A stretch of 64,000 nucleotides of DNA, from the NCBI RefSeq assembly GCF_001885095.1, contig NZ_LZDD01000002.1, positions 310,001 through 374,000 on the forward strand, read 5' to 3'. The position numbers were made by a program, and so were the translations under genes. This stretch comes from Streptococcus bovimastitidis (GTDB lineage Bacteria; Bacillota; Bacilli; Lactobacillales; Streptococcaceae). Shown in pieces: positions 4,717 to 19,353 of this stretch (its first letter is position 1; each line of letters begins with the position of its first letter). The notes beneath the pieces were generated by a model. It had not been told where the DNA came from, searched no databases, and saw nothing but the letters and a program-made list of their open reading frames with translations.

Positions 4717-4740
4717 ACAAAAAAACCGGTGAGAGACCGG
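4717..4740 (-). terminator. terminator of fasX copy 2
   Basis: Minus-strand hairpin CCGGT/ACCGG with loop CTCTC (4726-4740), followed by seven T residues. Confidence 0.8.
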
Positions 4741-4904
4741 TTTTTTTATGTATATCATATCCAAACAAAGACAATTGTTTTTGGACCTGTTTCCTAGAAG
4801 TTCTTCAAAATTTGTTATTTAGGTGAGAGAGAGAGAAACAATATTTTGATAAAATTGGGGAATGAACTCTAGTACTTGTCTCAAGTTTCCGTCTTTATTT
4901 TACA
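4717..4904 (-). ncRNA. fasX: FasX-like regulatory RNA, copy 2 (rnpA-proximal)
   Basis: A noncoding interval of about 188 nt between a TATAAT (4911-4916) and a terminator (4717-4740). It sits between the fas locus and rnpA, where fasX lies in S. pyogenes. It shares two blocks with copy 1 (5619-5814): 4825-4865, read on the minus strand as CATTCCCCAAT, then ATCAAAATATTG, then a run of CU dinucleotides; and 4755-4784, containing TTGTCTTTGTTTGGATATGA. The flanks differ. FasX in S. pyogenes (about 205 nt) controls streptokinase, pilus and adhesin mRNAs by base pairing. Assignment rests on synteny, size and promoter architecture; targets cannot be told from the window. Confidence 0.72.
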
Positions 4905-4910
4905 AATATA

Positions 4911-4981
4911 ATTATAGCTGATAAAAACAGATTTTTTTATATATGTCCTGAAATGTTGCATATTTATCCTAAAATGTTATT
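4911..4981 (-). promoter_or_regulatory. fasX copy 2 promoter with FasA-type direct repeats
   Basis: TATAAT at 4911-4916 lacks a recognisable -35. Upstream are two direct repeats, written on the plus strand as TCCTGAAATGTT (from 4946) and TCCTAAAATGTT (from 4967). Their starts are 21 bp apart, two helical turns, as expected for a LytTR regulator dimer. The same arrangement at the same distance precedes copy 1. Confidence 0.65.
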
Positions 4982-5050
4982 TTAGCCATTGGTTTTTAAT
5001 TTTCTAATCCATTTATGTCTTTTTTGATAAAATGACAGAATTTTCTCTAT

Positions 5051-5584
5051 TTGCTATTTTTTCTGATTAATTCTCTTTTCATGAAATCTTTTGATACTAA
5101 ATCTCAGACTTACCGTCTCTTGAAATTCCATTGGCGATTCTTTCAGAAAGACAGCCGTAAACTCTCCGTTAAACCCTTTTACTGCAGAACCTTAGGTCAA
5201 ACTGTAACTCCGAAGGAAGTGCTTCATAAAGCTCTTAGTCATTGTGAGGAACTTCGTTACTACTATGATCTCTATCAATTATTACTTTTTCACTTTCAAG
5301 AGAAGAGAATTGATGCATTTTTTAGTTTGATTGAAGAGAACTTAACAGCCACAAACAAAATCTTTAAAACAGTCTTTAAGAACTTCATGAAACATAAGAC
5401 GTATATCACTAATGCCCTCGAAACTTCTTTTTCTAATGCCAAACTAGAAGCTACTAATAAACTCATAAAAGATATTAAAAGAGCTGCTTTTGGATTTCGG
5501 AACTTTGAAAACTTTAAGAAACGTATTTTGATTGCTTTGAACCTCAAAAAAGAGAGTATCAATTTGATACTCTCTAGAACTTAG
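5051..5584 (+). pseudogene. ISL3-family transposase remnant (C-terminal part)
   Basis: An open frame of 177 codons resembling the C-terminal part of ISL3/IS1167-type transposases (DDE_Tnp_ISL3), with HWRFF, a Leu-rich helical region and the closing segment LEATNKLIKDIKRAAFGFRN. Full-length members are more than 400 residues, so the N-terminal half and most of the catalytic core are missing. The first dozen residues (MLFFLINSLFMK) probably come from adjoining sequence. It is transcribed against the fas genes and is presumed inactive. It lies exactly between the two fasX copies. Confidence 0.75.
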
Positions 5585-5589
5585 CTTTT

Positions 5590-5618
5590 CATCTACCCAC
5601 TACAGTTGACAAAGAGCC
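5590..5618 (+). repeat. terminal inverted repeat of the ISL3-family remnant
   Basis: The sequence after the transposase stop ends in CAGTTGACAAAGAGCC, the typical end of IS1167-like elements (GGCTCTTTGTCAACTG inward). It abuts the poly-A/T of the fasX copy 1 terminator at 5619. No matching left end is visible. Confidence 0.65.
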
Positions 5619-5640
5619 AAAAAACCTAGATATCTCTAGG
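5619..5640 (-). terminator. terminator of fasX copy 1
   Basis: Minus-strand CCTAGA/TCTAGG stem (5625-5640) followed by six T residues. Confidence 0.8.
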
Positions 5641-5814
5641 CTTTCACTGATTAAAATCAGTTTCATATCTAAACAAAGACAATTTTTTGGTCATCGCTTT
5701 TAGTCAAGTTAAATCAAAAATACTATTTGTTTTTTTATGGAGAGAGAGAGAAAACAATATTTTGATATATTGGGGAATAACTTATTTTAAGAGATAACTT
5801 AAGTCTTTATCTAT
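5619..5814 (-). ncRNA. fasX: FasX-like regulatory RNA, copy 1 (fasA-proximal)
   Basis: A noncoding transcript of about 196 nt predicted from the TATAAT at 5821-5826 to the terminator at 5619-5640. It lies directly downstream of fasA on the same strand. Size and position match S. pyogenes FasX. It shares with copy 2 the CCCCAAT / ATCAAAATATTG / CU-repeat block (5740-5780) and the TTGTCTTTGTTTAGATATGA block (5663-5690). The CU run is complementary to purine-rich ribosome-binding sites, a plausible seed. Promoter, operator and terminator are all present, so this copy should be functional. Confidence 0.78.
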
Positions 5815-5820
5815 AAACTT

Positions 5821-5891
5821 ATTATAAATAAAAATACAAATAATGGTGATATTTTTCCTAAAATGTCAAAAATCCGTCCTAAAATGTCAAA
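5821..5891 (-). promoter_or_regulatory. fasX copy 1 promoter with FasA-type direct repeats
   Basis: TATAAT at 5821-5826 has a poor -35 (TCACCA at 5844-5849). Two perfect 15-bp direct repeats, TCCTAAAATGTCAAA on the plus strand (5856-5870 and 5877-5891), lie just upstream with a 21-bp period. The proximal repeat starts 35 bp from the -10, the same as at copy 2. This is the layout of a promoter activated by a LytTR regulator, here most likely FasA. Confidence 0.72.
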
Positions 5892-5902
5892 TTTCTAATC
5901 AT

Positions 5903-6640
5903 TTAGTGGATTGACTCCCATTTCTCTATTAATGATTTCATCTTTAATCGAGAAACCATACAAGAATCTCCATTCTCAAAATAGACTAATTGGTGTGATT
6001 TATCAATTCGAACAACATTTTCTAAATTAACTAAGAAGGAACGATGGGATAAGAAAAGTTTTGGAGCAGCATCTTGGATTTCAGCTAAATTTCCATAAAA
6101 TTCTAAGCGTTCTGTTTGTGTCCAAAGACAAACCTTATGTGGTGTTGTCGACGTCGCAAAATATAGAATATCACGATAAGGTAAGCGAAGTCTGGTTTGT
6201 GGCGTTTCAAATAAGAACATTTCTTCAGTTTCATGACTGGACATCATTTGGTAGGTATAAAGAATGCATTCTTGAATTTGATCTTTAAATTGAACATTAT
6301 CAACGGCCTTATCAATAAAATCAAGTGCTGAAACTTTATATTTAAAGGAGATTGGCGCAAATTCTGAATGAGTTGTCACAAAAACAATAACTGCATTAGG
6401 ATCTAGATTGCGGATATCTGCAGCTAATTCAAGCCCTCTTTTGCTTTCATTCTTGATTTCAATGTCCAAGAAGAAAAGCTGATGTTCACCTCGTTCTTTA
6501 ATACTATCAAGTAATTTCTGAGGACTTGAAAAAACCTCCATATAAGATTTAGTAATTTTCTGTTCTTTTAAGATTTCATCAATAACGGTCTCAATCCGTC
6601 CTTGTTGAATAAAATCATCTTCTAAAATAAAAATATTCAT
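5903..6640 (-). CDS. fasA: FasA, LytTR-type response regulator
   Basis: A 245-residue response regulator. The receiver domain (about residues 1-120) has acidic residues ILEDD at the start, phospho-acceptor Asp in FFLDIEI, the conserved THS, and Lys in KVSALDFIDKA. The C-terminal LytTR DNA-binding domain (about 145-243) has the FLSHRSFLVNL core. It is the only response regulator in the locus and the last gene of the kinase series, one base after fasC, so all eight sensor proteins probably feed into it. In S. pyogenes FasA activates fasX; the direct repeats upstream of both fasX copies here are the obvious candidate sites. Confidence 0.9.
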   Translation of the reverse strand: MNIFILEDDFIQQGRIETVIDEILKEQKITKSYMEVFSSPQKLLDSIKERGEHQLFFLDIEIKNESKRGLELAADIRNLDPNAVIVFVTTHSEFAPISFKYKVSALDFIDKAVDNVQFKDQIQECILYTYQMMSSHETEEMFLFETPQTRLRLPYRDILYFATSTTPHKVCLWTQTERLEFYGNLAEIQDAAPKLFLSHRSFLVNLENVVRIDKSHQLVYFENGDSCMVSRLKMKSLIEKWESIH

Positions 6641-6641
6641 T

Positions 6642-7949
6642 CTAATTCCCCATTTCTAAAAATTGCCTAAATCTGTAGTGATCACTTTTTGTTGAAAATA
6701 CAACTTTAGGATAACGAGACAGTATTTCTAAAAAACGTGTGTGACTCTCCCCCACCTTAACTTCATCATTCCTATTGTCTTCAAATAACTGTCCAATGTC
6801 AACTCTTTTCATTTTGGAGCTATTCTCCATGATAAAAAACTGCTTTCCATCTTGTTCAAAAAAAGCTAGAGAAATAAATGGATTACGACTACCTTTAGCC
6901 GTAATAATGGCGTGGTCAAAGAGATGCGATAGTAACGGCACTAAATCTAAAATATCAACATAATTTTTATTAATATGATCTGGAACTTCAACATAAACAT
7001 CAATTTTTTGTAACTTAGCTTCTAAAATTTTGACATTCAAGAGAGACTTGACCACTGATTCTTTGACATTGTTCAATGAACTAAGATCTGGTCCCAATGA
7101 TTTCATTTGTCTCTGAGACTCTTGCAGGATTGACTCGTAGATAAAAGTAATGTCAGCCATGTCCTCACGGTCTATACTATCTTTAAGACTGATTAAGATG
7201 TTTTCAGAATCATGTTTAATGGTTCTAATGTCTCGATAGAGCTGCTCAATATAATTGTTATAATTCTCTAAATAATGAATTCTCGCTGACTCAGCATCTG
7301 CAACCTCTTTTTCCAATTGGTCTTTCGCAAAGCGGTCCAATTTAAAAACTACGGTGACCATCATTCCCAGATAGATAAAAATAAAGAGCGTTCGATATTC
7401 CCTAAAATAAATCTGATAAGGACTTTCTAAGTGGGCGAAAAAATGAATAATCAGATAATAGGTAATCATGGCAAAATTCATTCCAATCAACCAAGACTGC
7501 AATTTTTGGTGAGAAATAAAACGGATCAAACTAAAGTTAAAACCAAAGGTATAGTTAAAGACATAAGCCACAGGGATGATTAGCAAGTAAGAAAACTCTA
7601 AGAGATAAATATTAGAAACAATTTGGTTGATAGTATAACCAGTAATAATTGGTAATATTACCCCTGAAATCATTCGAAAGACCACTTCAACTAGCATAAT
7701 TGAGAAGAAGCCATAGAAAATATGTTCCGACCATCTTTTTTGAGGCATTGCAAAGCGACTAACAAGCATGAGAAGGATGGGATCGACCATAATGAGCTCT
7801 GTTGTGACAAGATTAGTGAGAAACAATATTAGAAAAATCCCCACAATTTTACTAAATGACAAGCGAATATTGGTACATTTCTGAAAAACAAACCAATCAA
7901 CAATAAAAATAATCAAACAAAATAATGTTGTATGAATGGTATCTGACAT
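6642..7949 (-). CDS. fasC: FasC-like sensor kinase subunit with His but degenerate ATP-binding site
   Basis: A 435-residue HPK10-type sensor. About six membrane helices occupy residues 1-205 and include the DPIL motif shared with the sister proteins. A coiled linker precedes the phospho-acceptor segment TIKHDSEN with His246. The ATP-binding half is degenerate: the N box reads FDHAIITA (His where Asn is needed) and the RGIGL G box is absent. The protein could receive phosphate but not make it. It starts directly after the fasB stop (TAA-ATG) and ends 1 base before fasA. It is presumed to be phosphorylated in trans by FasB, which lacks the His but has intact N and G boxes. Confidence 0.82.
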   Translation of the reverse strand: MSDTIHTTLFCLIIFIVDWFVFQKCTNIRLSFSKIVGIFLILFLTNLVTTELIMVDPILLMLVSRFAMPQKRWSEHIFYGFFSIMLVEVVFRMISGVILPIITGYTINQIVSNIYLLEFSYLLIIPVAYVFNYTFGFNFSLIRFISHQKLQSWLIGMNFAMITYYLIIHFFAHLESPYQIYFREYRTLFIFIYLGMMVTVVFKLDRFAKDQLEKEVADAESARIHYLENYNNYIEQLYRDIRTIKHDSENILISLKDSIDREDMADITFIYESILQESQRQMKSLGPDLSSLNNVKESVVKSLLNVKILEAKLQKIDVYVEVPDHINKNYVDILDLVPLLSHLFDHAIITAKGSRNPFISLAFFEQDGKQFFIMENSSKMKRVDIGQLFEDNRNDEVKVGESHTRFLEILSRYPKVVFSTKSDHYRFRQFLEMGN

Positions 7950-9296
7950 TTATTGCTCACTTTCTTTATGGATTATTAAGGTTTGTTGGAAGTCATAGTT
8001 TTTACTCTTGGTACTTAAAGAGATGTTAGGATACTTTTTGATAATTGAAAGGACATTGGCTAGCCCAACTCCTCGTCCTCCCCCTTTTGTAGAAAAACCA
8101 TCCTTAAAAATACGATTGATATCAATTTGCTTTTCCTGTGTACTATTTGAAATGGTTATGATTTGATTATCTTGGTCTAGGAAATAAGCAATACTTACCA
8201 CTTTTTCTTTCGACAAAACGGCAGATTCAATAGCGTTATCACAGAAAATAGAGAATAATAATAGAAGATCAAAGCGCGAAATGTATGTATCATTAATAGT
8301 ATCAGGTAATTCTAAATGAACAGTTAAACCTGCTTTTTCTGCTTTTATAATTTTAGCGGATAATAAACTTTTGATAGAGGGCATTCCAAGTTTTGACAAT
8401 TTTGAAATAGTATAATGTTTATCATCCCAGTAGTCTTTTGCTTCACCTACTGTAGCTTGATAGACATGTTTAATTTTATGAATATCTTGTTCTTCAAGTG
8501 CCCCTCCGATTGTTTCCAATTTTTTTAAATACGATTTTTTAAATTGTCTAACATCTTCGTAAAGCTTTCCAAGGTTATTGCCATAATCAAGTAAATTTTC
8601 GATGTAGGCTTCTTTTTCTCGTTTCAAGTCATCTTCAAGATGACGTTTGGATTGTCGATTAAAGTAAGCAATTATAATTAAAAACAGACCTGTAAAAATT
8701 AAGTATAAAATCTGATAAGACCTTGGGATTCCTATTGGTTTTAAATAATATAGAAAAGGATCGTCAAAGCCTAAAATAAAGAAAGCATCAATATAATAGG
8801 CAACAATGAAAAACAACATAATTGTCGTAAATCGTTTAGAGCGCTCTGAAGATTCATTTTCATAAAGCTTTTTATAATCTTTGCCAATCAAGTAAGACGT
8901 GATTTTAAGACAAGGAAACAAGAGTAAATAAGCAAGAATGCTTGTTAAAAGATGGTTACTAATACTTGTATTTAATTGTAAAAGATAGGGGATTAAACAA
9001 GATTCCAAAAAACGCGAGATCAAATCAACAAAGACACTTGGAGCTAAGGCTAAATAAATCGTTCTAAGACTCAGTGGTTTATGTTTTCTAATAATTAATA
9101 TTAACCAAAAAAAGATGGGATCGATTATTAATGGTGCTAAACTCGGTATTTGATTCATGAAAACACAAGCTGAAATGATAAAAAGTTTTTTCCAGAAAGC
9201 TAGCTTGATATCAGTTAAGAAGGTAAAAATACTAACTTCCGAAAAATAAAAAATAATGACCGACAGTTGAAACCCAATCAAAAACGTCACTGACAT
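7950..9296 (-). CDS. fasB: FasB-like sensor kinase subunit with ATP site but no His
   Basis: A 448-residue membrane sensor with six or seven hydrophobic helices in the first 215 residues. The H-box position reads QFKKSYLKK, so Lys254 replaces the phospho-acceptor His (codons AAA AAA at 8535-8540). The ATP-binding domain is intact: N box CDNAIESA (Asn354) and G box STKGGGRGVGL followed by ANV. It should bind ATP but cannot phosphorylate itself. A ribosome-binding site GAAAGGAG lies just before the ATG. A 127-bp gap upstream separates it from the amplified pairs. Naming follows order in fasB-fasC-fasA. Confidence 0.82.
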   Translation of the reverse strand: MSVTFLIGFQLSVIIFYFSEVSIFTFLTDIKLAFWKKLFIISACVFMNQIPSLAPLIIDPIFFWLILIIRKHKPLSLRTIYLALAPSVFVDLISRFLESCLIPYLLQLNTSISNHLLTSILAYLLLFPCLKITSYLIGKDYKKLYENESSERSKRFTTIMLFFIVAYYIDAFFILGFDDPFLYYLKPIGIPRSYQILYLIFTGLFLIIIAYFNRQSKRHLEDDLKREKEAYIENLLDYGNNLGKLYEDVRQFKKSYLKKLETIGGALEEQDIHKIKHVYQATVGEAKDYWDDKHYTISKLSKLGMPSIKSLLSAKIIKAEKAGLTVHLELPDTINDTYISRFDLLLLFSIFCDNAIESAVLSKEKVVSIAYFLDQDNQIITISNSTQEKQIDINRIFKDGFSTKGGGRGVGLANVLSIIKKYPNISLSTKSKNYDFQQTLIIHKESEQ

Positions 9297-9372
9297 AAAG
9301 CTCTCCTTTCTTGAAAATTTCTGTAACTTATATATTCTATCATATAAATGTAGACAGAGTTATTCTTTTTTT

Positions 9373-9397
9373 AAAAGCACCTAAAAAACGTGCTTTA
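9373..9397. other. hairpin between the amplified kinases and fasB
   Basis: AAAAGCAC (9373-9380) and its complement GTGCTTT (9390-9396) form a stem with an A/T loop. No U-run follows on the minus strand, so it is not a convincing terminator for the kinase genes. It may be an attenuating or processing structure in the readthrough transcript. A weak -10 (TAGAAT) lies between it and fasB. Confidence 0.4.
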
Positions 9398-9423
9398 AAC
9401 ATTTTTCGATAGACATTTAGTAA

Positions 9424-10758
9424 TTAAACATCTACTGAAAAAATCATTTCTAGTCGTTGTGAAACATGGTAATCACCACTTTTAGTCACAATTGTTGTGT
9501 AGGGATACTGCTCTAAGATTTTTTTGACATTGGCAAGACCAATGCCACGGTTTTCCCCTTTAGTTGAATAACCTTCTTGAAAAACCTGACTAATATTAAT
9601 GCGCTCAACCTTGTTACTGTTTTCTAATAAGAAGATAATAGTATCATTTTGGCAGAAGAATGCTAGCGAAATTTCTTTTACATCTGATTCTTTAGCTGCA
9701 TCAATGGCATTATCGAAGAAAACAGATATGATAATGATAAAATCAATAAGTTTCATTGGAATGTTCCTAATAACATCTGGTACTTCCACTGATACTGAAA
9801 CACCTGCAGATTGAGCCTCGAACAATTTTGCAGCCATAAAACTCTTGACCGTTGGAATTGAAATATTGACAAGCCGGTCTAAATCAAAATGATGATCACG
9901 GAAGGGGTTATCGATACTTGTAAATATTGTATTATATTCTGCTTTAATCTTATCTAAATCTTCCGTCTGCGCAATCTTTTCAAACCTTTCTAAAGACGTT
10001 CGCGTATCATCTTTAAAGCTTGAAATTTCGTGATATAGCTTTTCCAAATAGACATTATATTCTGACAAATGTTTAAAGTGACGGCTTTGATTGGCCTGAA
10101 CCTCTTCATTAATAATAGTCAAAGACCGGTCATTTAGTCTTCTAATACCAATCAAGAAGATAATCATATAGACTAAAATAATATAATACTTCAGGTTTTG
10201 GTCATAAGCAACAAACCATTTAAAATTATTTTCAATAAAAATCAAACCTTGAACTAAAACAAACACAATAATCATTGAAATATTTAAAGGTTTAAACAAA
10301 CTATTCTCTGATTTGTCATTAGCCAAACGAATTTTTTCATAATCAATATGCAGCATTGCTTTAATAAAAAAGTAATAAGGCAAAATCAAAAGATAAACTA
10401 GGTGAATATACCATAGATGATTTGTCATTTTATCTAAAGTTTGATTTGTAATAACAGGAATGAAAAGAAAATAGATAATTCGAGACGAAAGTTCAATATT
10501 AGTTACAGCAAAAAAACTATAAAAAATATGCTTCGACCAAGAAAATTGTGGTCTTATTACGAAAGAAAAAATTAATAGGTATATGGGATCAATAATAAGT
10601 GAAAAATTATCCAAAAAGTAACTACATAAACCACTCAAAAAAATAAATAAAATGGATTCAATTTTTCGTACTTTCACTTTTGAAATATCTTGAAAGATAA
10701 GCAATAAATTGAAATAAAGGAGAAAATAAAAAGTCACACTATAAAAAATCTCTTCCAT
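9424..10758 (-). CDS. HPK10-type kinase subunit with ATP site but no His (pair C)
   Basis: 444 residues. The N-terminal sensor has about six membrane helices with the IDPIYLL motif. The H-box position reads SFKDDT, with Asp250 in place of His. The N box FFDNAIDAA (Asn350) and G box STKGENRGIGL are intact, so it is an ATP-binding subunit without a phospho-acceptor. It lies 12 bp after the His-bearing partner at 10771-12075. It is closely related to 12187-13533 (shared IDFIIIIS, DNAI, EGYSTKG and RGIGL segments), so the two come from tandem duplication. It is followed by the 127-bp gap before fasB. Confidence 0.85.
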   Translation of the reverse strand: MEEIFYSVTFYFLLYFNLLLIFQDISKVKVRKIESILFIFLSGLCSYFLDNFSLIIDPIYLLIFSFVIRPQFSWSKHIFYSFFAVTNIELSSRIIYFLFIPVITNQTLDKMTNHLWYIHLVYLLILPYYFFIKAMLHIDYEKIRLANDKSENSLFKPLNISMIIVFVLVQGLIFIENNFKWFVAYDQNLKYYIILVYMIIFLIGIRRLNDRSLTIINEEVQANQSRHFKHLSEYNVYLEKLYHEISSFKDDTRTSLERFEKIAQTEDLDKIKAEYNTIFTSIDNPFRDHHFDLDRLVNISIPTVKSFMAAKLFEAQSAGVSVSVEVPDVIRNIPMKLIDFIIIISVFFDNAIDAAKESDVKEISLAFFCQNDTIIFLLENSNKVERINISQVFQEGYSTKGENRGIGLANVKKILEQYPYTTIVTKSGDYHVSQRLEMIFSVDV

Positions 10759-10770
10759 TAGCCCTCATTT

Positions 10771-12075
10771 CTACTCCACTGATTTAGGATTAGTGATATT
10801 AATGCGATATTGAAAGACTGAATCGCCTTGATTTCGATAGATAAAAATGTTGGAATACTTATCCGTTAAATAATCAAAAATGAGATTATTTTGTTCGACC
10901 AATTCTTTAGGTAAATTATTAATACTTTTAAAAAACTTATCATAGGTGCTTTCAATAATTAGGAAACCAGTACCATGCATATCACTATTGAATACAAATG
11001 TCATTGTTGCATTTTCATTTTTGGGGATAGTAGTATTAATAAATTTAAAAATTGCTGTTAAAAGAACAATGAAATCCATCGTTAAGATATGTAAGTTATC
11101 TATTGGATTTAGAATTTGAACAGAAGTTAAAACCCCTTTATTCTCTAGCTCATAAAATTTTTGAGAAAGAAAAAACTCTAAATCTTTATCCATTAATTCT
11201 TGAAATTTTTCATCATAAAGTTGATTAATGGTAACAGCTTCATTTCCCATTTTCGCTAAAATATCTCTAGTAATTCGATGAATTAATCTTGGATCATTAT
11301 GCTCTAAACTCCCCGCTAAGGAAATCATCAAGTTTTCATAGTCATGTTTAAAGGAACGAATCGTTTGATAGGTGTTTTCAATATAAACATTATAATTCTC
11401 TAAGGCCAGTAAATACTGTTCTTCAACTAATTCGATGTAGCGTTCAGATCTAACTTTACCATAATGATTAATATAGGAAGATAGAAATAAGAAAACAAAA
11501 ATGAAAAAAAGAATTAAGAGTTTTGATATCCATATTGATTCTCCCCCTGAACTATTATTAACTTCAAAATAATAAAAACCAGTCAGGTAAATAAGTAAGA
11601 AGATATCACTAATGATTAATAGTCTGTAAATCACTTTTAGATAATCATGTTTGAATCGAAATGTTTGGATTGCAAAAACTTCTTCAACAAAAGTTAATAG
11701 CGGAACAACACTTATATAAGAAAGCAATTCTATTTCCGGACTTTTCCAGACAGCTAAGGTTGTCATATCAAATAAAAACGGGAAAACAAAGAATATCATC
11801 AAACTAGAAAATAAACTGGTGATAACTATCGGAAATGAGATATAGTAAATCAGATGAAAAATGCCATCGTTTGGATAGGCTTTTCTCCGATAGACGAGCA
11901 TCATTAGTGGCTCCAAAATAACAAATGGAATATGCAAATAAAGATAAAGCATTGCTTCAACTAAGGTTAGAATCAAAACCTTAAACAGCCTATTTTTTTC
12001 TGTTGTTAACAAAAAGAAGATGGTCCAAGAGGTTAAAAAACGGGTTAAAAAAACCGTAGCAGTTATGTCTAACAA
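10771..12075 (-). CDS. HPK10-type kinase subunit with His but no ATP site (pair C)
   Basis: 434 residues. The N-terminal segment FLTRFLTSWTIFFL is nearly identical in three sister genes. About six membrane helices follow, then an intact phospho-acceptor box SFKHDYEN (His244). The C-terminal domain has lost the ATP-binding motifs: the N-box position reads FKFINTT and no glycine-rich box exists. It should act as the phosphate-accepting half with the ATP-binding subunit at 9424-10758. It has its own promoter at 12105-12133 in a 111-bp gap. Confidence 0.85.
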   Translation of the reverse strand: MLDITATVFLTRFLTSWTIFFLLTTEKNRLFKVLILTLVEAMLYLYLHIPFVILEPLMMLVYRRKAYPNDGIFHLIYYISFPIVITSLFSSLMIFFVFPFLFDMTTLAVWKSPEIELLSYISVVPLLTFVEEVFAIQTFRFKHDYLKVIYRLLIISDIFLLIYLTGFYYFEVNNSSGGESIWISKLLILFFIFVFLFLSSYINHYGKVRSERYIELVEEQYLLALENYNVYIENTYQTIRSFKHDYENLMISLAGSLEHNDPRLIHRITRDILAKMGNEAVTINQLYDEKFQELMDKDLEFFLSQKFYELENKGVLTSVQILNPIDNLHILTMDFIVLLTAIFKFINTTIPKNENATMTFVFNSDMHGTGFLIIESTYDKFFKSINNLPKELVEQNNLIFDYLTDKYSNIFIYRNQGDSVFQYRINITNPKSVE

Positions 12076-12104
12076 ATACTTTTCCTTTCAATTTAATCCA
12101 TTTA

Positions 12105-12133
12105 ATCATACTATATGCCATTCTTAAAGGCAA
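12105..12133 (-). promoter_or_regulatory. promoter of kinase pair C
   Basis: Minus-strand TTGCCT (12128-12133), 17-base spacer and TATGAT (12105-12110). The spacer ends in ATATAG, and the upstream AAAAATGA / TTAGAAA elements resemble those of the promoter at 17597-17625. The promoter appears to have been duplicated together with the kinase unit. Confidence 0.65.
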
Positions 12134-12186
12134 TTGTTTTCTAATTTTTATTCATTTTTAACATAATTCATTCTTTTCTCAACTCT

Positions 12187-13533
12187 TCAAAACATGGTCT
12201 GTTGACTATTAAAAACCATCTCAAGCCTTTGGGAGACTCTGAAATCTTTGCTTTTTGTGGTCAATGTCGCAAAGGGATAGGGTTGAAGGAGTTTCATAAC
12301 ATTGTGTAAACCAATTCCCCTTGTTCTACCTTTAGTCGAATAACCTTCTTTGTATATTTGACTGATATTTATTCTTTCTACTTTGCTAGAATTCTCAATC
12401 AGAAAAACGATGGCGTCGTTATGGCAAAAAAAGGCAATTTTAATCTCTTTTGCTTGCGACTCCACTGATGCTTCTATTGCGTTATCACAGAAAATAGAGA
12501 TAATAATGATAAAATCAATCAATTTCATAGGCAATGCCATAATCTTATCTGGAATTTCAATTTTTGTTTCAATGCCTAGTTTTTGTGCTTCGAAAATTTT
12601 TGCTGCCAAAAAGCTTTTTAAAGTGGGAATATTAATATTGACCAATTTATCGAGATTAAACCGTTGATTTTTAAATGGATTAAAGCCAATTTTAAAGAGT
12701 TGGTCAAATTCATCACTTATCGCATCGACATCTTCATGATCAACCACCTGTCCCAATCGATTAAGCGACAGAGACGTTTCTTCTTTAAAAGAGTTAATTT
12801 CTTTTAATAAGCCTTCCAAATATTGATTGTAATTGGCCAAGTTGTGAAAGTGATGTTCTTGTTCCCTTAATAATTGTTCTTCAAGAATGTGACTGGCGAG
12901 ACTATTGAGCCGATTAACACCAACTAAAAAAATAAGGACATAGATGGAAATAACCAAGTAACGATAATACTCATTAAAAACTTCTGACATAGACGCAATA
13001 TTGTATTGAAAAAAGGTACTCACTTGAACAAAAATGAACATAAGAATCATACCAAGATTTAAATTTTGAAAAATATTAGCCTTTGTATTATCAGAAGCCT
13101 CACGAATACTTTCATAATCAACATGTAGCAAAAATTTCATAAAAAAGTGGACTGGAATAATAAGAGCATAGGCTAATAAAATATTCCAGCCATCTTCTCT
13201 GAGTACTGTAGCTGAGCTTTGCATCAGTGTGGGTAGGATAATATATTCTAGCAGACGAACCGACAAATCAACAGAGGTAAAGACAAAGAAACTATAGAAG
13301 AGATGCTTATTCAACGGCAGATCTCTTTTAGTTAAATAAGAGAAAAGAAAAAGGTATAGTGGATCCAAAACAAAGGATAAATGATCGACAAAATAATTCA
13401 TTGACATGCCAATAAGGGCATATATAAGAACATATTGCCATTTTTCTCTGCGTCCACTGACGAGGATAAATAGGAGATAATAATCTAGGAAAAGAACCAG
13501 GTAAAAAAGCAGATAAAAAAGTAAGTCTGTCAT
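12187..13533 (-). CDS. HPK10-type kinase subunit with ATP site but no His (pair B)
   Basis: 448 residues, with a polytopic sensor region of six or so helices (LDPLYLFLFSYLTK motif). The H-box position reads SFKEETS, with Glu251 replacing His; no other His is conserved nearby. The N box FCDNAIEAS (Asn351) and G box STKGRTRGIGL are complete. It starts 1 bp after the stop of the His-bearing partner (13535-14848), indicating tight translational coupling. It is most similar to 9424-10758. Confidence 0.85.
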   Translation of the reverse strand: MTDLLFYLLFYLVLFLDYYLLFILVSGRREKWQYVLIYALIGMSMNYFVDHLSFVLDPLYLFLFSYLTKRDLPLNKHLFYSFFVFTSVDLSVRLLEYIILPTLMQSSATVLREDGWNILLAYALIIPVHFFMKFLLHVDYESIREASDNTKANIFQNLNLGMILMFIFVQVSTFFQYNIASMSEVFNEYYRYLVISIYVLIFLVGVNRLNSLASHILEEQLLREQEHHFHNLANYNQYLEGLLKEINSFKEETSLSLNRLGQVVDHEDVDAISDEFDQLFKIGFNPFKNQRFNLDKLVNINIPTLKSFLAAKIFEAQKLGIETKIEIPDKIMALPMKLIDFIIIISIFCDNAIEASVESQAKEIKIAFFCHNDAIVFLIENSSKVERINISQIYKEGYSTKGRTRGIGLHNVMKLLQPYPFATLTTKSKDFRVSQRLEMVFNSQQTMF

Positions 13534-13534
13534 T

Positions 13535-14848
13535 CTAATTTATCTCCTCTCCAAAGGTAGTAATACTAATATTCATGGTTTGCTTATAAGTAAAAACCGT
13601 TTTATCTCGCTCAAAAGAAATATTGTGGTATTTATCTTGATAAGAATCAATAATCAGATTAAGCTTTTCAAGTGCTTCCAATCTTTGAGTTGAATCCTTA
13701 GTATTCATTTGATTATGTTGGCTTTCGACAATAATCGAAATGTTTTGATTTGCATCTTCTTGACAAAAGATGGTCAGGAATGGTTCGTCAAGGCCTTGTC
13801 CTGAAATCGTTGCAAAATCCATAAAGACAGCCATCAGAACTAAAAAATCAAAGGTTTTAAGATGCAAGTTAGAAATTGGTCTAACATTAACGAATTTACA
13901 AACGAATCCTTTTTGCCGTAACTCATGAAATTTAAGGGCAAAAAAGATTTGTAAATCAGAATTATTAATATTTGAAAATTCCTCAAGATTAATGGAATAG
14001 TTATCGTGTGTTGTCACTTCCATTTTTTCGACAATTTCTTGATACACTTCTTTGATAATTTTTGGGTCCCGTCTATCAATACTACCTGCTAAAGAGAGAA
14101 TGATATTATCATAATCGTGCTTGAAAGAACGAATTTTTTTATAAAGTTCCTCGATATAAGCATTGTAAGCTTCCAGCATCAGCAAGTGTTGGTTTTCCTC
14201 TTCTTGAATTTGTCTTTTAGCTCTGGTCTTGGAATAAGCATTTAAATAAGAAGTTAAGTACAAAAATATTGAGAAGCAAAGTAAGATAAGTATCTTTGAA
14301 ATTCCGAAAAGCGAGGTATCTTCAGCATTAGCACTTTCAAAAAAATAAAAGCCGAAAAAATAAAAACTCAATAAGATATCTGTTACCCATAAAAATTTGG
14401 ATATGGTTTGTAGGTAGTAATGGTCGAAAGAAAAGTTTTCGATATTGAAAATCCGCTCAACAAAATTCAAAACTGGGATCACACATAAATAGGAAAAAAG
14501 TTCCATTTCTGCACTTTTCCAGACTGTCAATTCACTTTGATGGGTTAGAAAAGGAAGGACAAAAAAGATCATAACTGAGGAAATTAAACTAGTCAATACA
14601 ATTGGAAAGAGGGTATAGTAAATCCTTAATGGTAACGTATCTTTAGGGTGAAAGATGACACGATAATGAAGCATTAGGAAGGGTTCTAAAATAACAAATG
14701 GAATATGTAAAAAAAGAACTAAATAGACTTCAAATATCGTCAGAATAATAACACGAAGAAGTTTATTTTTTGTATTGGTATTTAAGAAAAATATAGTCCA
14801 ACTGGTTAAAAAACGTGTAAAAAACACTGCAACTGTTAATATCGACAT
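13535..14848 (-). CDS. HPK10-type kinase subunit with His but no ATP site (pair B)
   Basis: 437 residues from the ATG at 14848 (MSILTVAVFFTRF). This start aligns with sister genes and has GGAGAG about 10 bases upstream; the frame is open to 14881 without a ribosome-binding site. The sensor region begins with FLTSWTIFFL. The phospho-acceptor box is SFKHDYDN (His244). The ATP site is lost: the N-box position reads FMDFATIS and no RGIGL box is present. It ends one base before the ATG of its partner at 13533. Confidence 0.83.
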   Translation of the reverse strand: MSILTVAVFFTRFLTSWTIFFLNTNTKNKLLRVIILTIFEVYLVLFLHIPFVILEPFLMLHYRVIFHPKDTLPLRIYYTLFPIVLTSLISSVMIFFVLPFLTHQSELTVWKSAEMELFSYLCVIPVLNFVERIFNIENFSFDHYYLQTISKFLWVTDILLSFYFFGFYFFESANAEDTSLFGISKILILLCFSIFLYLTSYLNAYSKTRAKRQIQEEENQHLLMLEAYNAYIEELYKKIRSFKHDYDNIILSLAGSIDRRDPKIIKEVYQEIVEKMEVTTHDNYSINLEEFSNINNSDLQIFFALKFHELRQKGFVCKFVNVRPISNLHLKTFDFLVLMAVFMDFATISGQGLDEPFLTIFCQEDANQNISIIVESQHNQMNTKDSTQRLEALEKLNLIIDSYQDKYHNISFERDKTVFTYKQTMNISITTFGEEIN

Positions 14849-14895
14849 ATGGTGTTGGCTCTCCAATGGGGCATCTATCAAAATTGATAAGAAAA

Positions 14896-16251
14896 TTATT
14901 GCAGATTTCTTCTAATTTCTTTCTTCCATTTTGGCATAGATAATTTTTGAGTAAAGAGAAAATTATCACTCTTTGTTGCTAAACTACAATAGGGATAGTC
15001 TGTAAGAATTGTTTTAACATTGGCTAATCCAATTCCTCTATCACCGCCTTTACTTGAAAAGCCTTCTTCAAAAATCTGATTAATAACAATCTTTTTATCA
15101 GAAGTTGAGTTCTCAATCACAAAATGAAGATTTTCCTCCGTTTGAAAGATTGCCAAACGAATGAGCTTTTTCTCAGAAGTCATGGCAGCTTCAATGGCGT
15201 TATCACAAAAAACTGAAATGATAATGATAAAATCCAAAATTTTTAATGGTATTTCTGTAATAAGATCAGGAATTTCAATGCTAACATCCATTCCCTTGTT
15301 CTGAGCATCAAATAATTTGGCGGCTAAAAAGCTTTTAGCTGTCGGTATATTTAAATTGGTTAGATGGTCAAAATTATACTTTCGATGATGAAAGGGCACA
15401 TCTTCCCCAACAAACAAGTTTTTATAGGACTCTTTTATCTCTGATAATTGTCCTTTTTCAACAATTTTTCCAAAAGCAAGTAAGGAATGTTTAGTATCGT
15501 TTTTAAAGTGGCTAACTTCCGCAAATAGTGACTCAATATAAGAATTATATTGAGTCAAATGGTCATATTGTTGTTGTTTGTCACGTTCCATCCTTAGATG
15601 TAAAAATTCCATAGTCTGTCTATTCAACTGATATAAGCCATAGAAAAAGATTAAGACATACAAAGAAATTAGGATGTAGCGAAACTGTTCCGTATAGGCT
15701 GGGAAGCCTTCAATATTATATTGACAAAATATTAAAGTTTGCAAAACAATAAAGAAAAGGACCATAGTTACATTAAGAGGTCTAAAAATCTGACTTTGAT
15801 TAAGATGACTGACGTTATTTTCATGAAAGTTGTGGTAGTCAATGTGTAAAAGAGATTTAAAAAATAGATGAAAAGGAATAACTAGCATATAAGTTAGTAG
15901 AACCAGCCAAATATTATTATTAATTTGATCAATAGAAATATTTAAAAAAGTTGGTAAGACTAAATAACCAATAAGACGTGAAAAAAGGTCCACATTTGTA
16001 AAAACATAAAAACTATAAAAAACGTGATATGAGAGTGCTTGTTCTTGCTTTGTAAGGTAAGAAAAAGCTAATAAATAAAGTGGATCTAACATAATTGAAA
16101 ACTTGTCTAAAACATAGGATAAGACAATATTAATAATCCCAAATAAAACAACTTGGTACCATTTTGCTCTCCTCCCACTAACCATAACAAAGAGGAGATA
16201 AGTATTAATAAATAGAACTAGGTATAATAAAAAATCAAAAAAATAATACAT
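14896..16251 (-). CDS. HPK10-type kinase subunit with ATP site but no His (pair A)
   Basis: 451 residues, about six N-terminal helices (LDPLYLLAFSYLTK motif). The H-box position reads HFKNDTK, with Asn251 replacing His. Other His residues nearby (3 before, 5 after) are not conserved in sisters. The N box FCDNAIEAA (Asn351) and G box SSKGGDRGIGL are intact. It starts 4 bp after the His-bearing partner at 16256-17548, with GAAGTGAG as ribosome-binding site overlapping that stop. It ends 47 bp before the next unit. Confidence 0.85.
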   Translation of the reverse strand: MYYFFDFLLYLVLFINTYLLFVMVSGRRAKWYQVVLFGIINIVLSYVLDKFSIMLDPLYLLAFSYLTKQEQALSYHVFYSFYVFTNVDLFSRLIGYLVLPTFLNISIDQINNNIWLVLLTYMLVIPFHLFFKSLLHIDYHNFHENNVSHLNQSQIFRPLNVTMVLFFIVLQTLIFCQYNIEGFPAYTEQFRYILISLYVLIFFYGLYQLNRQTMEFLHLRMERDKQQQYDHLTQYNSYIESLFAEVSHFKNDTKHSLLAFGKIVEKGQLSEIKESYKNLFVGEDVPFHHRKYNFDHLTNLNIPTAKSFLAAKLFDAQNKGMDVSIEIPDLITEIPLKILDFIIIISVFCDNAIEAAMTSEKKLIRLAIFQTEENLHFVIENSTSDKKIVINQIFEEGFSSKGGDRGIGLANVKTILTDYPYCSLATKSDNFLFTQKLSMPKWKKEIRRNLQ

Positions 16252-16255
16252 TTGC

Positions 16256-17548
16256 TCACTTCTCTATTTCATGGCTTGGGGAATAGGTTAGGGACTGTAA
16301 AAGCAGAAAGTCTGTTTTGTCTCTTTTATAGATTAGTTCTGGCCACTCTTTTAAATAGTATCTCAAAATTAATCTCACTTTATCCATTGGTAGCTTACGG
16401 TCTCGAGTCTGCTTTTCCCAATCTTTGGAATATGAACTTTCTACTAAGATTGATAGTCTCTGACTTTGACTTAACTTCAAAAATAGCTTGATATAAGGTG
16501 ACCCTTCACAACTAGTTGTCAGCTCTGCAATTTCTAAAAGAGAAGAAAGAATAAGCAGAAGGTCAACTTCTTTGATTGGAGGTTGACTCAAGTCAGAATC
16601 ACTGACAAGTTCAAAAGTAATACCTTTTTCTGCCAACTTTTCCCTCTTGAGGGTCAAGTATATTTCAAGTTGAGTGTTCTTAAGTCCCGCAAAATAAGAA
16701 GTATCGAAAGTGACATCACTTTGGGTAGACTTAGCCATCTTATCCAGTGTTTCGTGGTAGACCGTATTAATAGCATCGATATCACCTTGATTAATACTAC
16801 CTTCCAGACTTAGCAGAATGTTGTGGTAATCGTGTCTAAAGGAACGAACCCCTTTATAGAGATTTTCAATATAATGATTATATTGTTCGAGGACTAGCAT
16901 ATGACGACTTTCCCTCTCTTCAATTTGTTTTTGGACAATGCTTCTATAAAAATTATTTAAATAAGAAGCTAGATATAAGAAGATAAAGAAAAAGATAAGA
17001 ATTAATATTTTAGAAAGCCAGAACAAATCGCCACCCTCAGCATTTTTTGATTCAAAGAAATAAAATCCTAAGAAGTAAATGACCAAGGACGAATCGGTAA
17101 TCCATAAATAGCGCTTTGTAACTGTCAAATCTGGATAAGTAAACTTAAAATTTTCAATAGTGAAAATCCGTTCTATAAAAGTAAGAAGTGGAATTACACA
17201 GAGATAAGATAACATTTCATACTCGTCACTCTGCCAAATCGTCGAAAGACTTTGTCTAGTGAGGAAGGGAAAAATAAAGAAAATCAAAAAACTTGAAATT
17301 AAACTGGTCAAAACGATTGGAAAAAGAGTGTAATAAACTCTAAGAAAGACAGACATTTTTTCATGGAAAAGAAGGTGATAAGATAACATTAACAGTGGTT
17401 CTAAAACTGTGAAGGGTACTCTAAAATAATATACCAATATTACCTCGCCAATTGTTAACAGAACAGCTTTAACTAATTTATTATCTTCCTCACTGTTCAA
17501 AAAGAAAATGGTCCAAGAAGTCAAAAAACGAGTGAATAACACTAGCAC
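16256..17548 (-). CDS. HPK10-type kinase subunit with His but no ATP site (pair A)
   Basis: 430 residues and the first kinase gene of the series. The N-terminus has FLTSWTIFFL, then about six helices. The H box is intact: SFRHDYHN (His239). The N-box position reads LLEIAELTT and the glycine-rich box is missing, so ATP binding is not expected. It is the presumed phosphate-accepting half for 14896-16251. It is expressed from a strong promoter at 17597-17625, just after the gltX terminator. Confidence 0.85.
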   Translation of the reverse strand: MLVLFTRFLTSWTIFFLNSEEDNKLVKAVLLTIGEVILVYYFRVPFTVLEPLLMLSYHLLFHEKMSVFLRVYYTLFPIVLTSLISSFLIFFIFPFLTRQSLSTIWQSDEYEMLSYLCVIPLLTFIERIFTIENFKFTYPDLTVTKRYLWITDSSLVIYFLGFYFFESKNAEGGDLFWLSKILILIFFFIFLYLASYLNNFYRSIVQKQIEERESRHMLVLEQYNHYIENLYKGVRSFRHDYHNILLSLEGSINQGDIDAINTVYHETLDKMAKSTQSDVTFDTSYFAGLKNTQLEIYLTLKREKLAEKGITFELVSDSDLSQPPIKEVDLLLILSSLLEIAELTTSCEGSPYIKLFLKLSQSQRLSILVESSYSKDWEKQTRDRKLPMDKVRLILRYYLKEWPELIYKRDKTDFLLLQSLTYSPSHEIEK

Positions 17549-17761: not shown

Positions 17762-19207
17762 TTACAACATATTGTTAATGTGTTGAATAGACTTTTCACG
17801 ACCTAATAAGTAGATTGTGTTTGGTAATTCTGGTCCATGCATTTCACCAGATACCGCAATACGGATTGGCATAAAGAGATTTTTCCCTTTGATTCCTGTT
17901 TCTTTTTGAACAGCTTTAATTTGTGGGAAGATGTTTTCGGGTTTAAAATCTTCATCAGTCATATCTTCTAATTTTTCTTTAAAGGCTTTCAAGACTGTTG
18001 GTACTGTTTCCCCTGCCATAACTTCTTTTTCAGCTTCGCTTAATTCTGGGAATTCGCTAAAGAAGAGGTCTGTTAGGGGGATGATTTCATCAGCTGATTT
18101 CAATTGTGGTTGGTAAAGTTCAACTAATTTTTCCGCTTTTTCAGTTAAGCGTCCGGCTTCTTCTAAGAAGGGTTTGCAAAGCTCAAAAACTTTAGCAAAA
18201 TCAGCATTTTTAAGGTATTCATTGCTCATCCAGTCCATTTTCTTTTGGTCAAAGGCAGCTGGTGATTTGCTGAGACGATTTTCATCGAAGAGCTCAATTA
18301 ATTGTTCTCTACTGAAGATTTCATCTTCACCACCAGGATTCCATCCTAAGAGTGCGATAAAATTGAAGACAGCTTCTGGTAAGTAACCTTTTTTGCGATA
18401 ATCTTCAATAAATTGAAGGGTGTTAGTGTCGCGTTTTGATAATTTTTTACCTGTTTCAGAATTGATAATCAAGGTCATGTGTCCGAATTCAGGTGCTTCC
18501 CAACCTAGTGCTTCATAAACCATTAATTGTTTTGGTGTGTTGGCAATGTGGTCATCTCCACGAATGACGTGAGAAATTTGCATGTCATGATCATCAATAA
18601 CAACAGCAAAGTTATAAGTTGGATAACCATCTTTTTTCTGGATAACCCAATCTCCACCTATGTTGCCACCTTCAAATTCGATATCACCTTTGACCATATC
18701 AGTCCATTTGTAAATACCAGATTCGTTGACTTTCAAACGAACAGTAGGAATAATTCCTTGCGCTTCGCGGTCAGCAATATAAGCTGCTTTTTCCTCTTCT
18801 GACATACCGATAAACTCATTAATGTAACGAGGCGTTTCACCAGCAGCTTCTTGACGTTCACGTTCAGCAGCCAATTCTTCTTCTGTGACATATGATTTGT
18901 AGGCTAAGCCTTTTTCCAAAAGTTGATCAATATATTTTTGGTAAAGTTCTAAACGCTCTGATTGACGGTAATTTTCATGGGTTTGAGGGCTTTCGTCCCA
19001 ATCCATTCCCAACCACTTGAGGTTTTCAAGCTGTGAGCGCTCACCATCTTCGACGTGTCGTTTACGGTCAGTATCTTCAATACGAATAATAAAAGTACCA
19101 CCGTGGTGACGAGCGTAAAGATAATTAAAGAGTGCTGTACGGGCATTACCGATATGCAATAACCCTGTTGGACTTGGTGCATAACGCACACGAATTGGTT
19201 TAGACAT
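17762..19207 (-). CDS. gltX: glutamyl-tRNA synthetase
   Basis: Charges tRNA-Glu (and probably tRNA-Gln for the amidotransferase route usual in streptococci). The 481-residue class I enzyme has the HIGH-type motif [11 protein letters not shown] near the start and a KLSKRD (KMSKS-type) loop. The frame is open to 19237, but the ATG at 19207 ([13 protein letters not shown]) has AGGAG 8 bases upstream and matches the family start. It is flanked by terminators and precedes the fas operon, supporting the S. pyogenes-like gene order. Confidence 0.96.
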
Positions 19208-19353
19208 TCTAGTTCTCCTATTCCTATTAAAAAGCATTTTAGTCAGCTAAAAACAAGCAACAATGAATCTTGAGCTTGTTCTCTTTGGTCATTTCACTAA
19301 CTATTAATGTTTCAAATCTTTACTATTATAGCATATTTTCCACCTTTGAGTAT

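Follow-up and report, generated by a model that had tools for sequence, protein, structure and literature searches.

Organization of the fas locus

The stretch of DNA analyzed here, referred to as the window, comprises 64,000 nucleotides of Streptococcus bovimastitidis (NCBI RefSeq assembly GCF_001885095.1, contig NZ_LZDD01000002.1, positions 310,001 to 374,000 of the forward strand). It holds the fas locus of a Streptococcus, composed of gltX (17762-19237), eight minus-strand kinase genes, fasA, two FasX-like small RNA (sRNA) genes, rnpA, yidC and jag. The Fas gene order is present, with fasB, fasC and fasA in succession, gltX upstream and fasX and rnpA downstream, and the eight AgrC/ComD-like kinases, all encoded by open reading frames (ORFs) that are open at the coordinates given in Table 1, are located between gltX and fasA. 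AgrC/ComD-type homodimeric kinases belong to the HPK10 family. The array kinases combine a membrane domain with AgrC-like helical (DHp) and ATPase domains, and their profile matches the AgrC kinase module with an E-value of 6.9e-48.

It was verified that these eight proteins fall into two complementary classes, hereafter His halves and catalytic halves, which lie side by side in four pairs. The motif residues that a first-pass annotation of the window had assigned to all eight kinases proved correct when the ORFs and the alignment were re-read: in the four catalytic halves other residues replace the phospho-acceptor His (Table 1) while DNAI and RGIGL or RGVGL are found in all, exactly as claimed, and the four His halves present the His in the DHp helix, with RGxGL in none of them. 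At the N-box position, the His halves read LEIAEL, MDFATI, FKFINT and FDHAII. Likewise, Pfam HATPase_c_5 is matched above the cut-off by 4/4 catalytic halves and by 0/4 His halves of the window, FasC reaching 17.5 bits against a cut-off of 22. His, N-box and G-box occur together in none of the eight window kinases, versus 37/37 single kinases used as outgroup. By motifs and Pfam matches, the phospho-acceptor His and the ATP-binding domain are therefore found on separate proteins, which is the arrangement that defines a split histidine kinase.

The three upstream pairs are ordered His half then catalytic half, and fasBC is ordered catalytic half then His half. The genes are separated by 4, 1, 12 and 0 bp inside the pairs and by 47, 111 and 127 bp between them, and this tight spacing within pairs supports the reading of each pair as one split kinase. 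The side-by-side arrangement in the window alone is weak evidence, since 16 of the 70 possible orders (0.23) would produce it by chance. The numbers of promoter-like and terminator-like sites were close to those in shuffled sequences (70 versus 61.4, sd 8.1, and 5 versus 5.2, sd 3.0, respectively), and therefore no transcription units are claimed.

Table 1. Kinase genes, regulator, repeats and sRNA genes of the fas locus in the window.
Feature	Coordinates	Strand	Remarks
H1, His half of pair 1	16256..17548	-	His239; without N-box Asn, without G-box; predicted model, mean pLDDT 82.7, best structural match AgrC
A1, catalytic half of pair 1	14896..16251	-	Asn251 at His position; DNAIE, RGIGL; predicted model, mean pLDDT 82.2, best structural match AgrC
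H2, His half of pair 2	13535..14848	-	His244; longest ORF begins at 14881
A2, catalytic half of pair 2	12187..13533	-	Glu251 at His position; DNAIE, RGIGL
H3, His half of pair 3	10771..12075	-	FKHDYEN in aligned DHp helix; without N-box Asn, without G-box
A3, catalytic half of pair 3	9424..10758	-	Asp250 at His position; DNAID, RGIGL
FasB, catalytic half of pair 4	7950..9296	-	Lys254 at His position; DNAIE, RGVGL; falls in FasB clade
FasC, His half of pair 4	6642..7949	-	His246; DHAII replaces DNAI, without RGxGL; falls in FasC clade
FasA, LytTR response regulator	5903..6640	-	Pfam Response_reg and LytTR; Asp59 in FLDIEI
FasA-box-like direct repeat, upstream of fasX1	5856..5887	-	two 11-bp repeats, 21 bp apart
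fasX1, FasX small RNA	5620..5814	-	Rfam RF02384, 117.8 bits, cut-off 100
FasA-box-like direct repeat, upstream of fasX2	4946..4977	-	one mismatch
fasX2, second FasX-like small RNA	4720..4902	-	Rfam RF02384, 63.6 bits, under cut-off of 100, E 1.3e-8

Half-kinases across the genus

Of the 284 genomes searched in the genus, 30, that of the window included, carry a FasA orthologue (E <= 1e-84), and one further genome (G015) carries a broken FasA. The survey set therefore consisted of 31 loci, namely the window and stretches of up to 20 kb from 30 other genomes. gltX is present on 30 of these 31 stretches, the exception being cut by a contig end, and kinases of the fas family adjoin fasA in 28. Motif counts took ORFs of at least 380 amino acids plus three shortened His halves, and 13 other kinase fragments (three in L042, two in L079, six in L112 and two in L117) were not counted. 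The outgroup comprised 37 single kinases of 380-480 amino acids that matched the profile at E 1e-20 or better, taken from stretches L056-L098 without L079, broken ones being uncounted. One kinase comparison excluded class X1 and loci L040, L052, L115, L118 and L120, and used 12 of the 37 outgroup kinases.

In the 28 loci, His halves number 35 and catalytic halves 36, and a further 6 subunits fit neither class. The two kinds of half are equal in number in 23 loci, and unequal in L042, L079, L112 and L117, which contain broken genes, and in L051. In the His column, His was observed in 35/35 His halves, in 0/36 catalytic halves, where twelve different residues take its place, and in 37/37 single kinases near FasA-like regulators; the N-box Asn and GxG are present in 36/36 catalytic halves and 37/37 single kinases. 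A conserved His elsewhere in the His-less subunits was sought, and no column of the alignment holds His in more than 19 of the 36 catalytic halves. The half-kinase pattern is real and general, and the split that the first-pass annotation had described goes beyond chance, as the same two states recur across the genus's 28 fas loci with such kinases. The broken FasC of L079 still carries LKHDSEN. When H1 alone was used as query against named genomes, no match was obtained.

Two kinds of pair could be distinguished: FasB-FasC, in which the catalytic half precedes the His half, and a second kind with the inverse order, of which the window has three in addition to FasBC. One pair of each kind is present in L045, L046, L079, L113 and L114 (FasC being broken in L079), and in L054, L055, L121 and L122 the sole pair is a His-catalytic one located directly before fasA. 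In L112 (S. penaeicida, a close relative), two pairs of the second kind accompany FasBC and the first is nearest to H1 and A1 of the window; several of its kinase genes are split by frameshifts, which may represent decay or sequencing error, and gltX, fasA, fasB and fasC are open.

Other variations of the locus were also noted. In L051 (S. saliviloxodontae), two opposite-strand ORFs of 546 and 299 amino acids (4983-7672) interrupt the array, with a catalytic half on one side and a His half on the other, and by eye only they resemble a transporter and an Rgg protein. L047, L048 (S. sobrinus) and L049 carry FasA orthologues 63-65% identical, beside gltX and without a fas kinase on the stretch, as orphan regulators, and a FasX search found no FasX in these genomes.

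Domain conservation and predicted structure

The two halves differ in the domain that has been conserved. Within the window, H1 and H2 are 59% identical in the membrane domain and 26% in the ATPase domain, versus 44% and 51%, respectively, for A1 and A2. For the upstream pair type, mean identities in the membrane, DHp and ATPase domains are 33/45/23% among nine His halves and 32/37/53% among eight of their partners. In the four loci of the L054 type, ATPase-domain identity is 38% in the His halves versus 80% in their partners, with membrane-domain values of 50% and 51%. On these identities, decay in the upstream pair type has been reciprocal, one half being affected in its ATPase domain and its partner in the His helix.

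In L050, L052 and L120 (S. vestibularis), the His half has about 300 amino acids and ends after the DHp domain. This is the same shape as the truncated S. pyogenes FasC 1-286, which complements a fasC mutant according to the parts of the published study considered here (Baral et al. 2025, PMC12675982). These three loci, with His halves devoid of an ATPase domain, represent natural experiments.

AlphaFold models of H1 and A1 both had AgrC as best structural match. Compared with the AgrC ATP-binding domain (4bxi), A1 gave a target TM-score of 0.83 with 31% identity and H1 one of 0.75 with 15% identity; because of the latter score, the ATPase-domain fold seems to be retained in the H1 model. After the fourth strand, the A1 model presents a long low-confidence coil and the H1 model a short helix.

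Phylogeny of the halves

A maximum-likelihood tree of 53 rows was inferred with classes X2, H_trunc, A_trunc and A_x excluded, FasB and FasC thinned to eight each, and 7 of the 37 single kinases plus the kinase of L145 as outgroups. In this tree the fas kinases, the three upstream pairs included, form one clade against the single kinases (100/98), and the His halves other than FasC form one group (98/98). Window H1-H3 group together (100/100), as do A1-A3 (98/86), which indicates that the expansion was lineage-specific on both sides. An independent split of each pair was disfavoured by the approximately unbiased (AU) test, with p 0.0225 when FasB and FasC were constrained to one clade and p 0.033 when the upstream halves of both kinds, His and catalytic, were. 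A single clade of all His halves was neither rejected (p 0.27) nor shown. These results agree with a single ancient split and later duplication of pairs, and FasC may have had a separate second origin. An A2 plus A3 fork received 90% on the ATPase-domain tree only, and no recent gene conversion was visible in the window pairs, whose longest exact shared stretches are 20 and 22 bases.

A complete kinase, with His box, DNAV and RGIGL, is located directly upstream of a FasA-like regulator in L145 (a Lactobacillales metagenome-assembled genome, 4002-6085). This locus has the fas gene order without the split, and its FasA is 55% identical. The kinase was expected to be sister to the fas kinases, but the trees group it with the outgroup.

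FasA, its putative binding sites and fasX

The genome yields one strong and one weak (E 4.4e-12) FasA match. The FasA of the window shares 89-90% identity with FasA from S. pseudoporcinus. Asp59 of the window's FasA, invariant in 14/14 aligned FasA, is off by one residue from the D60 of the S. pyogenes paper (PMC12675982). A His-half profile searched against the genome matched the eight array kinases only, and HATPase_c_5 matches five other proteins elsewhere in it.

The specificity residues in EnvZ are T250, L254 and A255, that is, 7, 11 and 12 positions after H243, as given in the part of PMC2991266 drawn on here, and these positions were carried over to the fas kinase family by assumption. 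At +7, Ile or Leu occupies 35/35 His halves, versus Ile in 2/37 and Leu in 0/37 single kinases; at +12, Ser is found in 33/35 versus 10/37; at +11, Asp (one Glu) in 17/17 FasC contrasts with Gly or Ala in 9/9 of the upstream type. Because there is one strong FasA and the His halves share residues near the recognized docking positions, the evidence leans towards FasA being the one regulator common to all pairs.

With up to three mismatches allowed, the direct-repeat pattern has two sites in 2.08 Mb, both upstream of the fasX copies, and a control pattern has none. By analogy with the ComE-like site described upstream of fasX in S. pyogenes (PMC12675982), these repeats are taken as a putative FasA box to which FasA would bind.

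FasX was found in 19 of the 31 genomes, above the cut-off in 16. The tandem fasX-like genes of the window (4720-5814) both keep the CCCCAAT...ATCAAAATATTGTTT and AATTGTCTTTGTTT stretches, and among the 31 genomes only those of the window and G228 have two FasX matches, those of G228 overlapping. A remnant of an ISL3-type transposase (Pfam PF01610, 63.9 bits, covering the end part of the model only) lies on the plus strand at 5051-5584, between the two fasX copies.

Interpretation

It is probable that each pair constitutes a split sensor kinase, and that three His-catalytic pairs and FasBC provide four input channels onto one regulator and two sRNAs. According to this proposal, the DHp domains would bring the two membrane subunits of a pair together as a dimer, and the catalytic half would use its ATPase domain to phosphorylate its partner's His in trans. 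The phosphoryl group would then be handed to FasA by the His half, and phosphorylated FasA would turn on both fasX genes. The first-pass annotation had regarded each pair as an obligate heterodimeric kinase, all serving one response regulator. The heterodimeric split kinase is well supported by the anatomy of the proteins, by its conservation in the 28 loci and by the FasB/FasC data from S. pyogenes in the parts of PMC12675982 considered; the three upstream pairs may likewise be obligate, functional units acting on one regulator.

Several observations weigh against this interpretation. The three upstream pairs may be active, privately paired and able to phosphorylate FasA, but their partners are assigned from gene order only. 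The N-box Asn is retained in 9/17 FasC, and in L051 and L053 the His half keeps GxG as well as Asn, so that these proteins may still bind ATP. FasC, unlike the upstream His halves, is more conserved in its ATPase domain (54%) than in its membrane domain (40%). L051 has two catalytic halves per one His half, and L050 (2750-5385), L052 and L120 each hold two further fas-type subunits without His and without a complete ATP site, which could be neither acceptor nor kinase. As regards ancestry, the grouping of all catalytic halves (89/89) is not strong, the best tree places FasC apart from the remaining His halves, and the copying of upstream pairs as units lacks support, with 41-67% at the window forks of the domain-wise trees (membrane, and membrane plus DHp).

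The further subunits of L050, L052 and L120 would be in agreement with another explanation, in which only FasBC signals to FasA and the upstream pairs are modulators or decoys that dimerize with FasB, FasC or each other and tune signalling instead of being working kinases. Such a role would also be compatible with the greater divergence of the upstream pairs from FasBC (19-20% identity of His halves to FasC, 27-29% of catalytic halves to FasB) and with the difference at +11. However, this explanation is unlikely, given that every upstream pair keeps all the key split-kinase residues, that A1-A3, among their relatives, are best conserved in the catalytic domain and that a lone His-catalytic pair is found beside fasA in four loci. 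It is very unlikely that the upstream pairs are decaying duplicates heading for loss, as the frameshifted genes of L112 and the broken fas kinases of L042, L079 and L117 could suggest: the six upstream genes of the window are all intact and their paralogues are 35-46% identical, therefore old, and the motifs lost and kept are the same across many species and not random.

It could also be argued that the catalytic halves use another His and are complete kinases whose pairing is incidental. The residue at H284 of S. pyogenes FasB is one candidate, since it was left open as a phospho-site in the part of PMC12675982 considered, and the column of H294 holds His in 18/18 FasB. The L044 FasB, with 448 amino acids and His at 241 and 284, matches the S. 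pyogenes FasB of that paper. Nevertheless, the H284 column holds His in 5/18 FasB and 0/18 other catalytic halves, because of which the survey speaks against H284 as the FasB phospho-site; in addition, the H294 column holds His in 1/18 other catalytic halves, and in the catalytic halves the part of the usual DHp helix that surrounds the His position is relaxed. This possibility is thus hardly credible.

Returning to the pairs as split kinases, a more speculative extension, considered possible but doubtful, is a combinatorial receptor array, in which the eight half-kinases would heterodimerize with cognate and possibly also with non-cognate partners. One regulator and two sRNAs would then integrate at least four membrane signals, and a channel would stay silent if either of its halves were missing. 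If so, streptococci could multiply the inputs to one regulator by halving their kinases. Split FasBC was published in 2025 for a single species. Judging from the survey, the design seems old and stable, being retained in 28 of the 31 fas loci examined and multiplied up to four-fold. Provided that the pairs work, the locus would serve as a system to study how heterodimeric receptors that are paralogues avoid mixing partners and what advantage splitting brings to a kinase.

Relation to known systems

The mechanism for one pair is already published for S. pyogenes FasB/FasC (PMC12675982). In the parts of that study considered here, it was demonstrated that FasB and FasC form hetero- but not homodimers in two-hybrid assays, that FasC H246 is needed, since H246A is inactive, that the FasC kinase domain is dispensable, since FasC 1-286 is active, and that FasA is phosphorylated at D60, FasC being proposed as a pseudokinase. 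The S. pyogenes FasBCA/FasX system and the window have in common the locus context, FasA, FasX and the FasB/FasC halves; however, S. pyogenes has one pair, whereas the window adds three pairs of the second type and a second fasX-like gene. Multi-pair loci and the conservation of the missing His are outside what those parts of the paper discuss, and no multi-pair fas locus appeared in titles or abstract beginnings among the matches listed from the open-licence literature. As far as searched, the new elements are the presence of up to four pairs at one regulator, reciprocity across the genus, naturally truncated His halves, two fasX genes with the genome's only FasA-box-like sites, and the evidence against FasB H284 as phospho-site.

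By fold and sequence, AgrC is the closest solved structure to the Fas halves. The 37 single kinases near FasA-like regulators align with the fas kinases over the full length, but each of them carries His, N-box Asn and GxG together. A natural split kinase is known in CheA3/CheA4 of Rhodobacter sphaeroides, whose phosphorylatable and kinase domains are on two proteins, neither of which autophosphorylates alone, in a source that, in the part considered, also treats split kinases in general terms (PMC3591291). Nevertheless, CheA3/CheA4 is a soluble chemotaxis kinase with whole domains absent, a single pair and an unrelated P1-P5 fold arrangement, whereas the Fas halves are membrane sensors in which both domains are usually present and one is dead. 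The interaction of a kinase with a kinase-like partner is shared with GacS/RetS and RocA/CovS, as described in the same parts of PMC12675982; in those systems a complete kinase is modulated, whereas in the Fas pairs neither partner is complete.

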